Below, piece by piece: positions 28,050 through 31,805 of a stretch of DNA of 64,000 nucleotides (position 1 is the first letter of the stretch; every line of letters begins with the position of its first letter). A model generated the notes under the pieces. It did no database searches and was not told the origin of the DNA. It saw nothing but the letters and a program-made list of their open reading frames with translations. Position numbers and translations under genes: made by a program. The DNA comes from Methylophilaceae bacterium LSUCC0665 (lineage in GTDB: Bacteria; Pseudomonadota; Gammaproteobacteria; Burkholderiales; Methylophilaceae): contig CP103437.1 in NCBI GenBank assembly GCA_024919215.1, forward strand, positions 186,001 to 250,000, read 5' to 3'.

Positions 28050-28667
28050 TTCGCCAAGACCATATAATTTTTTACTAGCATAGTTTTTATTTATTCTTAA
28101 ATTTGAAATATGTATTGTTTTTAACCCTGCCTGGTAAGCACTCCTTAGATTTTCAAGTGAATCATCAATAAGAATAATGTTTTGATAAGGCATTCGTTTA
28201 ATTTTTCTAAAAATACGGATATCAGGTTTGGATATGAAAAAGTTATCCTCAATACAAATAGTTTTTTTAAAGAAATAATGAATATCTAATTTTTTTAAAA
28301 TAAATTTTGTATAATGAATTGGTGCATTTGTAAGTATAATTTTGTCATCTTTAATAGCCTTTAAAATCGTTTTTAAATATTTTACAGGCTCTATTTTTGC
28401 TTCAATATCTTTTAAGTTGTGAGTCTTATTTAAAAAATCATTGGGATTGATTTTATGATGGATCATTAATCCTCTTAATGTTGAGCCATACTTCTTCCAA
28501 TAGTCGGCTCTTAAAAGATTAGCCCTCTCATGTGAAATATTTAAATATTCAGATATATATTGAGTCATATCTCGATTGATAAGCTCAAAAATATATGGGC
28601 TTGCGTGATGAAGCGTGTCATCAAGATCAAATACCCATAGTTGTTTTAGTTTTTTCCTTTGATTAAT
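28026..28667 (-). CDS. HAD-superfamily hydrolase, pyrimidine 5'-nucleotidase-like; probable ATT start
   Basis: The frame encodes HAD motif I ([12 protein letters not shown]), motif II (ILTNAP), motif III lysine ([14 protein letters not shown]) and motif IV ([18 protein letters not shown]), with an alpha-helical cap. It resembles the pyrimidine 5'-nucleotidase (SDT1/PHM8-like) genes that follow argB in Betaproteobacteria. Starting at the first ATG (28568) would remove motif I and give an inactive protein. Between the upstream in-frame stop (28713-28715) and that ATG there is no ATG, GTG or TTG. The best candidate is ATT at 28665-28667, 7 nt after AAGGTG, giving about 213 residues; another ATT lies further upstream. 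It overlaps the end of argB by 22 nt. Substrate is inferred only from family and position. Confidence 0.75.
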
Positions 28668-29512
28668 GTACCTACACCTTGATTGGTTAATATTTCTAAC
28701 AACAATGCATGCTCAACTCGTCCGTCAATGATATGTACGCTATTGACTCCGCCTTTTGCGGCATCCATAGCTGATTCTATTTTTGGTAACATACCGCCAC
28801 TTAATGTGCCATCATTAATCAATGTTTCAATATCGTTTGGCTTAATTCCTGTAATCAGATTATTTTGGTTATCTAGAACACCTTTGGTGTTAGTCATTAG
28901 AATTAATTTTTCTGCCATGAGAACTTCAGCTAATTTGCCTGCGACAACATCTGCATTAATGTTGTAAGTTTTTCCATCTGAACCAATTCCAATTGGAGCG
29001 ATTACAGGAATAAAGTCACCAGTATCCAGAAAATCAATCAGGCTAGGATCAATGGACTCAATTTTACCGACATAGCCAAGGTCTATTTTTTTACCATCTT
29101 TGTCTTTATCAAGCTTTGAAGCATGAATGAAGTTTCCATCTTGCCCAGTAAGACCAACTGCTTTCCCGCCATGCATGTTGATTTGATGAACAATTTCTTT
29201 ATTTATTTGACCACCTAAAATCATTTCCACAACATCCATGGTTTCTTCATCAGTCACTCTTACCCCATTAATAAATTCACCCTTCTTACCAATTTTCTCC
29301 AGGTGTTCATTAATCTGAGGGCCTCCTCCATGAACAACAACTGGATTCATACCCACCAACTTCAATAACACTACATCCATAGCAAAAGAGCTTTTAAGTT
29401 GTTCATCTATCATGGCATTGCCACCAAACTTAATCACAATAGTTTTATCAAAAAATTGCTTTATGTAAGGCAATGCTTCACTAAGTATTTTTGCTTTGTC
29501 ATTCGGTGCCAT
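28646..29512 (-). CDS. argB: Acetylglutamate kinase
   Basis: This 288-residue amino-acid kinase phosphorylates N-acetylglutamate, the second step of arginine synthesis. Visible are [11 protein letters not shown] near residue 26, [18 protein letters not shown], the substrate-binding [14 protein letters not shown] segment, and the C-terminal [18 protein letters not shown]. It touches argA (the ATG shares base 29512), so the first two steps are co-expressed. The N-terminal extension [17 protein letters not shown] suggests the hexameric arginine-inhibited type; this is inference. Confidence 0.97.
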
Positions 29513-31014
29513 TATTGCTCCAATTCCTTTAAAAATATTTTTGAATTTCGTTGTGGGGAGTATTCCTTTTTTTTCTCATCAGGTAAATCATTGATGCTGC
29601 CCTGTTTAAATGCATTTTCCATAAACCAATGGCTAGATTGAGTTGTCATAATAAATGTCTTGTTATTCACTTTCTTACATTCATTCTCACAATATTCTAA
29701 AAGTTTTTTCCCATAACCCATATTTTGGTAATTTTCATTTATTGCAAAACAAGCAATTTCAGAAATACCATCATAATGTTTTACTTGAGCACACCCAAGT
29801 ATCTTATTATCAAACTCTAAAATGTGGAAATTTTGTATTTCCATTTCTATCTTTTCAAGACTCCTGTCTACAATGATTTGGTTCTTCATTAGTGGATTAA
29901 TCATTTTTTCAATCACTTTGGCATCTTGTATCTTGGCAGATCTGAATTTCTCTATTTTTTCTGGAGTAATAACAGTACCCTGGCCTTGGTTAGTGAATAA
30001 TTCCATTATTAATGAACCATTAACGTGTCTATTTACTAGATGAATTTTTACTAAGCCTTCTTTTAAACCTTCAGCTGCACCTTCCAATATCGGCAGGGTA
30101 TTTTTTTCTATAAATTCTGGATGTTCTGATTCTTTGATATGAGTTATCAAATTGTTTAATTTGATGCTTGTCATTTCAGATATATATTCCCCTCTAATAT
30201 TTTGTACCCCATTATTTTCAGTGATATAAATTAATTTTTCAGCCTGAATTGACGAAGCAATTTTACTTGCTGATGATTCAAAAGATAAATTAAATATTTC
30301 CCCAATAGGAGAGTATCCAATAGGAGACATGATGACGATTTCATTGTGGTTAAGTTTTTCAATGATTGCTTCATGGTTAATCTCCCTAATGACACCTGTT
30401 TGTTCCATATCAACTCCATCAATAACACCTCTCGGTTTCGCCATAAGAAAATTACCAGATGAAATTTTCAACTCACTTTTAAAAATATTATTATGGTAAA
30501 TATTGGAAGATAAAGCCGCTTCAATTTTTGTTTTAACTAACCCATTAGCTTCAATAATATGAGGCATCATCTCAGCTGTGGTAATTCTTTGATGCTTATA
30601 GAATCTTGATTTAATATTATTTTTATCCAATCTTAAATCGATAAAAGGCCTGATGCCATGAATTAGAATGATTTTAATTCCTAAAGAGTGAAGCAGATTA
30701 ATATCAGTACATAAATTGACAAAAGAGTTACTCTCAAGGGCAAAACCGTCAAATGCAATAACGAATATCTTATTTCTATAATGATGAATATACGGGGCTG
30801 CCGATCTAAAGGCTGATATAAAGTCGACGCTGGATTGCCCCACTAAATTATCAATGGAAACTTTAAAGTAATTTGAATATTTTATTAGAACTGGTAAAGA
30901 AGGTTTTAGTTTTCCTTGTTCAATTTTTGAAAGATTACCAGGGTCTAAGTCAAGGATTTGACTGAGGTTGGTAATAGTTAGCTTTCTATCGGTTCTAAGC
31001 TGTTTAAGATTCAT
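29512..31014 (-). CDS. argA: XRE helix-turn-helix domain fused to N-acetylglutamate synthase
   Basis: The 500-residue protein has three parts. Residues 1-57 are a full XRE/Cro-type HTH ([21 protein letters not shown], then [20 protein letters not shown], then [10 protein letters not shown]). Residues about 64-350 are an amino-acid-kinase-like domain that begins like ordinary ArgA ([18 protein letters not shown]) and ends [21 protein letters not shown]. Residues about 353-500 are a GNAT domain with the acetyl-CoA loop [12 protein letters not shown]. ArgA makes N-acetylglutamate and is usually feedback-inhibited by arginine through the kinase-like domain. The linker between HTH and enzyme is only about 6 residues. 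The frame is continuous. The one internal start, GTG at codon 58, has no Shine-Dalgarno. The HTH is not part of known ArgA architecture; I infer autoregulation. Confidence 0.93.
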
Positions 31015-31015
31015 A

Positions 31016-31029
31016 TTGTATATTTTACA
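31016..31029 (-). promoter_or_regulatory. Proximal dyad site upstream of argA (candidate XRE-ArgA operator)
   Basis: TTGTATATTTTACA sits one base upstream of the argA ATG. It is the core of a perfect inverted repeat, ATTGTA-TATTT-TACAAT (31015-31031). A near-identical copy lies 43 bp away in inverted orientation. No Shine-Dalgarno precedes the ATG here, so the same bases could also fold as an RNA hairpin over the start. Confidence 0.5.
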
Positions 31030-31058
31030 ATATTTATATCTATCTTTATATAAATTTA

Positions 31059-31072
31059 TGTAAATTATACAA
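31059..31072 (-). promoter_or_regulatory. Distal dyad site upstream of argA, overlapping a TATAAT box
   Basis: Read on the minus strand this is TTGTATAATTTACA, matching the proximal site at 13 of 14 positions. It contains a perfect TATAAT (31064-31069), a candidate -10 for argA; the -35 region (TTAGCC) is weak. A repressor bound here would block the promoter. It overlaps the stop codon of rsmE. Confidence 0.5.
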
Positions 31073-31805
31073 AATTATCAGTTAAGGCTAATAAGGCACT
31101 TGTTATTGCTAAGGAAGCCGTCTCTGTTCGTAATACTCTTTTACCTAAAGATAATGATTTAAACCCAGCATTTTCCGCTACTTTGATTTCAGCTTCTGAA
31201 AAGCCTCCCTCTGGTCCGATTAAAACCTGATAACTTTTTTTATTTGTTAAGTTGCTATTCCTTAAATTAAATAGCGAGTAATCTGTGTAGGGATTCAAAA
31301 TTAACTTACATGAATGATCATCTTCATTTGCTAATTTATTTAAATCAAAAATTGTTTCATGAACGGTTGGTATTTTTGCCCTTCCGCTCTGTTCGCATGC
31401 AGAGATAACAACTTTTTTTAGATGTTCAATTCTATTAGATATTTTATTAGGTGGTATTTTAAAGTTTACCCTTTCGGTATTAATTAAATAGAAATTTTTC
31501 ACTCCCAGTTCTGTATTCTTCTGAAAAATAAAGTCGAGTTTATCCCGCGAGGTTAATGATTGTAGGATGCTAATACCAATGTTTGCTTCACTTATATTGG
31601 GATTTCTTTCATTAACAAAAATCTCGACATTTTTTTTACCAATTTCTGATATTTCGCCAAGATAATCATATCCATCACCATTAAATAATATAATTTTATC
31701 AGATGGCTTTAATCGCAATGACTTAACAAGATGCTTCGAGGCTTCCTCAGATAGGTTGGTCACGCCATGTACTGAAATAGTGTCTGAATGGTAAAATCTA
31801 TTCAT
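31065..31805 (-). CDS. rsmE: 16S rRNA (uracil(1498)-N3)-methyltransferase
   Basis: This 246-residue SPOUT methyltransferase modifies U1498 of 16S rRNA. It has an N-terminal PUA-like domain (RFYHSDTISVHG, LRLKPSDKIILFNGDG) and the C-terminal knot motifs KLILNP, VLIGPEGGFSEAEI and LSLGKRVLRTETASLAI, which are diagnostic. It lies upstream of argA on the same strand, separated by the short region that holds the two dyad sites. The start is only 26 nt from the divergent redoxin gene. Confidence 0.96.
   Translation of the reverse strand: MNRFYHSDTISVHGVTNLSEEASKHLVKSLRLKPSDKIILFNGDGYDYLGEISEIGKKNVEIFVNERNPNISEANIGISILQSLTSRDKLDFIFQKNTELGVKNFYLINTERVNFKIPPNKISNRIEHLKKVVISACEQSGRAKIPTVHETIFDLNKLANEDDHSCKLILNPYTDYSLFNLRNSNLTNKKSYQVLIGPEGGFSEAEIKVAENAGFKSLSLGKRVLRTETASLAITSALLALTDNFV

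Follow-up and report, generated by a model that had tools for sequence, protein, structure and literature searches.

Metabolic enzymes that carry a DNA-binding domain of their own are described in E. coli as trigger enzymes, PutA, NadR, and BirA being examples, and the set compiled for this bacterium comprises BirA, NadR, PepA, PutA, and PyrH, of which PutA and PepA are single-target regulators (PMC8249747). The protein considered here, an N-acetylglutamate synthase (NAGS), ArgA, with an N-terminal helix-turn-helix (HTH) domain of the XRE type, appears to resemble such enzyme-repressor fusions, as a complete enzyme, a DNA-binding domain in the same polypeptide, and a conserved candidate operator are all found, and regulation of a single target seems likely, as for PutA and PepA. 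The E. coli set, however, holds no NAGS with an XRE domain, and DNA binding by XRE-ArgA is what we infer. Among DNA-binding domains, those of XRE (Cro/CI-type) repressors work as dimers on short inverted repeats. CylR2, DdrO, and the Xre regulator of ICEBs1, the nearest solved relatives of the ArgA domain by sequence, are likewise of the HTH_3 kind, but they are stand-alone regulators, whereas the HTH of ArgA belongs to a biosynthetic enzyme. Both features of XRE systems, the HTH_3 domain and short inverted repeats at its own promoter, are present in the case of ArgA.

Two further systems are close to the locus in terms of arginine metabolism. The arginine repressor ArgR, a hexameric arginine-binding protein, acts on paired ARG boxes, each of them an 18-bp palindrome, with 3 bp between the two (PMC6245113). 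The argA locus is similar in that its product, judged from the homology of the NAGS part, would be a hexameric arginine-binding protein, and in that two palindromes overlap a probable −35 region. Unlike ArgR systems, it belongs to a family without ArgR, its palindromes have 13-bp cores whose centers lie 42 bp apart (30 bp in most genera), and argA is the only one of the arginine genes tested in this genome to carry them; neither an ArgR protein nor a pair of 18-bp palindromes with about 3 bp in between was found for it. In the NAGS of Neisseria gonorrhoeae (PDB 2R8V and 3D2P), arginine moves the N-helix and alters the shape of the hexamer, with K201 and E270 helping to hold the ligand, and the review of the NAGS family in which this is set out makes no mention of HTH domains or DNA binding (PMC4490483). 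The gonococcal enzyme shares with ArgA the AAK plus NAT architecture, and its K201 and E270 align with K260 and E338 of ArgA, which are invariant in 23 relatives; unlike ArgA, it has no N-terminal HTH. No description of an HTH or XRE domain fused to an NAGS was found in the open-access PMC literature.

The locus lies in a stretch of 64,000 nucleotides from Methylophilaceae bacterium LSUCC0665, which was analyzed as a whole and is referred to as the window (Table 1). The HTH domain of ArgA is recognized by PF01381 (HTH_3; 37 bits, residues 3–55), and the remainder is a complete NAGS, with NF003641 and TIGR01890 both above their curated cut-offs. The predicted structure (pLDDT 82.8, pTM 0.69), whose best structural matches are the native and arginine-bound forms of the gonococcal NAGS, consists of a five-helix HTH domain (residues 3–58), a low-confidence joint (59–65), and then a helix (65–77) that corresponds to the N-helix of NAGS. 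Since the arginine-site residues are kept and the HTH is joined to the N-helix, it is plausible that a change at the arginine site would reach the HTH.

Table 1. Features of the rsmE–argA–argB locus (positions in the window)
Feature	Positions	Strand	Basis
argB, one-base overlap with argA, presumably co-transcribed	28646..29512	-	
argA, N-terminal XRE helix-turn-helix plus N-acetylglutamate synthase, 500 aa	29512..31014	-	profiles, model
XRE domain of ArgA, residues 1-58, proposed operator-binding part	30841..31014	-	PF01381, model
Downstream operator (candidate), ATATTGTA-N5-TACAATAT	31013..31033	.	sequence; kept in relatives
Possible -10-like hexamer TATAAA, 16 bp from TTGTAT	31045..31050	-	sequence; weak in clade
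Upstream operator (candidate), TGTA-N5-TACA, over the last rsmE codons, stop, and inferred -35	31059..31071	.	sequence; kept in relatives
rsmE, upstream gene, same strand; stop codon within upstream operator (candidate)	31065..31805	-	
TTGTAT, -35-like hexamer (inferred) in the left half of the upstream operator (candidate)	31067..31072	-	analogy with relatives

Between rsmE and argA, two 14-mers, TTGTATATTTTACA (31016–31029, plus strand) and TTGTATAATTTACA (31059–31072, minus strand), contain TGTA-N5-TACA cores at 31017–31029 and 31059–31071 that are 42 bp apart from center to center and separated by 29 bp. The first-pass annotation had described two matching sites framing the argA upstream region, and their coordinates and sequences proved correct, as did the perfect palindrome of the ATTGTA-N5-TACAAT type at the first of them. 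This palindrome extends to ATATTGTA-N5-TACAATAT (31013–31033), which has two bases in common with the argA ATG (31012–31014). The arms of the upstream dyad are 4 bp long and the rsmE stop codon (31065–31067) lies inside it. Two details had to be refined: the distance of 43 bp holds from start to start of the 14-mers and becomes 42 bp between dyad centers, and the inverted orientation of the second site applies to the 5-bp center only, each site being palindromic in itself. The argA leader (31012–31035) has no evident Shine–Dalgarno sequence, the position of which is occupied by the downstream candidate operator.

Conservation of the sites in relatives that keep the fusion, which the annotation had named as a check, was found widely. 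The named relatives LSUCC0717 and KB13, at 96% protein identity, place the window in the OM43 group of Methylophilaceae. Across eight close relatives, both sites keep their TGTA and TACA arms and core substitutions are confined to the 5-bp center, while the spacer and the end of rsmE diverge. Among distant congeners (42–47% protein identity), the two-site layout is mostly kept (for example, L013 and L022), and some congeners have one good site only. In a set of 84 argA upstream regions sampled from 18 genera of the family, two exact TGTA-N5-TACA dyads occur in 26 (expected 0.00), and a scored TTGYA-N5-TRCAA pair reaches p<0.05 at 74. The spacings allowed for the scored pair (29–31, 41–42, and 50–52 bp) were picked after viewing the data and were applied alike to family loci, shuffles, and HTH-less controls. 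Within the 84-locus set, no clear pair was found in the genera g3, g11, and g24, in most of g13, or at two g14 loci. When the family was searched for two TGYA-N5-TRCA dyads about 30 bp apart, many AT-rich matches fell at argA coordinates, and most of those elsewhere resemble coding stretches or short repeats.

The N-terminal XRE domain is present on ArgA throughout the sampled genera of Methylophilaceae. In sampled genomes of the order and class outside the family, the fusion was not seen, match start and open-frame length both being weighed because a long linker could hide an HTH. Where argA lacks the HTH, in other families of the order, the pair is found at p<0.05 in 2 of 20 cases and with lower scores. 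Given that most fusion loci of the family carry the pair and HTH-less argA is without it, pair and HTH go together. Covariation of site sequence and recognition helix is at most suggestive: by raw counts, DAG in the helix occurs with TTGTA and DSG with TTGCA, but once relatedness is considered this comes down to only 2–3 independent pairs on a 33-locus tree. In some congeners with a different recognition helix, the upstream site is degenerate and the start-codon site reads TTGCA-N5-TGCAA (L025–L028) or is TTGC-N7-GCAA-like (L015, L019, and L021).

The spacing of the two centers falls into classes, 29–31 bp in most genera, 41–42 bp in the window's clade, and 50–52 bp in other congeners, that is, about 3, 4, and 5 helical turns, so that the four turns noted by the annotation recur as one case of several. 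Such helical phasing is only suggestive, because just 3 changes of spacing class are needed on the 33-locus tree. Outside the window's own genus, TTGYAT or a similar −35-like sequence makes up the left half of the upstream site, and TANNNT follows exactly 17 bp after it at 37 of 59 loci, compared with 1–6 loci each for 14, 15, 16, 18, 19, and 21 bp; the 18 loci at 20 bp apparently pick up the first bases of the downstream site. By this comparison, the −35 (TTGYAT) would be part of the upstream dyad and the −10 would be located between the two sites. In genera with the 30-bp spacing, the downstream site starts immediately past the −10, and in the window's clade it is displaced by roughly one more turn, to a place against the argA start codon. 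Positions over the −35 and after the −10 would suit repression. In the window's clade, the tabulated TATAAA is the only −10-like hexamer suitably placed, two relatives having TACAAA there; the promoter hexamers of this clade are weak, and a generic scan for promoters did not rise above chance. The TATAAT inside the upstream dyad was considered as a −10 and is not favored, since TTGYAT in most relatives precedes TANNNT by 17 bp.

As regards copies elsewhere, which the annotation had named as a possible refutation, the exact TTGTATANTTTACA pattern matches twice in the genome of 1,311,651 bases, both times at argA, and the idea survives. When two mismatches are allowed, the window holds 7 matches vs 7.3 expected, which is no enrichment; thus, with the loose pattern not special here, it is the near-perfect dyads together that stand out. 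In a genome-wide pattern search, on which, as on the others, our statements about the whole genome are based, TTGTA-N5-TACAA with at most one mismatch is not enriched either (79 sites vs 95 for the reversed control), which argues against a large regulon. No good dyad is present upstream of argC, argG, or argJ of the window's genome, the arginine genes that were looked up by name; the view of argG took in the adjacent upstream region, presumably argF. A large regulon in this genome is therefore not supported, and the evidence favors control limited to argA, and with it argB. In g18 and g19 genomes, a TGTA-N5-TACA dyad lies at the metX–metW junction or in the first metW codons (L139, 1501–1514; L129, L124, and L136 alike), in many cases accompanied by a TTGCA-N5-TGCAA-like dyad 30 bp away. 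The window's genome contains no exact match to the metW dyad, which may reflect coding conservation or a second target.

The best reading of the dyads, as far as comparison of sequences can tell, is that they are operators for the XRE-ArgA fusion, a proposal of the annotation that is supported by conservation with the fusion, by the HTH-less controls, and by the specificity of the pattern in the genome. The annotation itself had cautioned that chance similarity in AT-rich DNA must be considered, and conservation might also come from rsmE coding and promoter hexamers alone, given that the region is AT-rich and that rsmE coding sequence (GTA TAA) makes up the left half of the upstream site. This is very improbable: when the 110-bp upstream region was shuffled 20,000 times with its dinucleotides preserved, 77 shuffles contained at least one TGTA-N5-TACA dyad and none contained two, close relatives also keep the right arm, which lies past the rsmE stop, the pair persists in genera where the end of the upstream gene lies outside the site, and HTH-less controls are without it. 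That the sites are ordinary ArgR operators, as the function of argA and the tandem pair of palindromes might lead one to think, is the least credible reading, next to negligible, because none of 121 family genomes has an ArgR above the PF01316 cut-off, with control genomes positive in the same search, because 13-bp cores 29 bp apart differ from 18-bp ARG boxes 3 bp apart (PMC6245113), and because argC, argG, and argJ lack the motif. The view of the annotation that the sites do not look like ArgR boxes is thus borne out.

Other readings accept the sites and differ in what binds them or to what effect. Dyads of the TGTA-N5-TACA type suit many XRE proteins, of which the genome may encode others, so that a separate stand-alone XRE-type regulator might be the one to act here, leaving the HTH of ArgA for oligomerization or other targets; the similar dyad at metW in other genera would be in line with this. 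We consider it unlikely, as the pair tracks the HTH fusion, is missing from HTH-less argA, and in the window's genome has its exact pattern only at argA. A role of XRE-ArgA in activating or fine-tuning transcription or translation start, for instance by blocking the start codon alone, is quite improbable; the downstream site of the window's clade does abut the start codon and replaces the Shine–Dalgarno sequence, but in most genera the sites cover the −35 and follow the −10, favoring exclusion of RNA polymerase.

Autorepression by XRE-ArgA is probably the explanation: the dyads would serve as operators to which the fusion binds by its XRE domain, repressing its own promoter and hence argB. A pair of XRE domains would bind each dyad, the upstream one on the −35 region and the downstream one past the −10 in most genera or at the start codon in the window's clade. 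Bacterial NAGS being a hexamer, one ArgA oligomer, or else two cooperating dimers, may hold both sites on the same face of the DNA, as is suggested by sites that are near whole helical turns apart. Looping or cooperative binding, both raised by the annotation, may be involved. Arginine bound in the amino-acid-kinase domain would move the N-helix that is joined to the XRE domain and may in this way set DNA binding. It is a tentative possibility, somewhat short of probable, that in Methylophilaceae ArgA took over the role of ArgR, with the hexamer sensing arginine via its feedback site and clamping two operators spaced by whole turns, so that catalysis, feedback, and repression would be united in one polypeptide.

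The differences in site sequence and spacing that occur among relatives provide a ready test set for the holding of two operators by one oligomer. The system would extend the enzyme-repressor fusions by one whose single arginine site may serve both allosteric feedback and transcription control. The window's genome encodes both ArgA and ArgJ (argJ at C1:1042448-1043638); provided that ArgJ recycles the acetyl group, small amounts of ArgA would be enough, which would fit a tightly controlled argA. If true, the mechanism would explain how arginine synthesis is controlled in a family without ArgR, and such economy is of interest in a genome that is very small.
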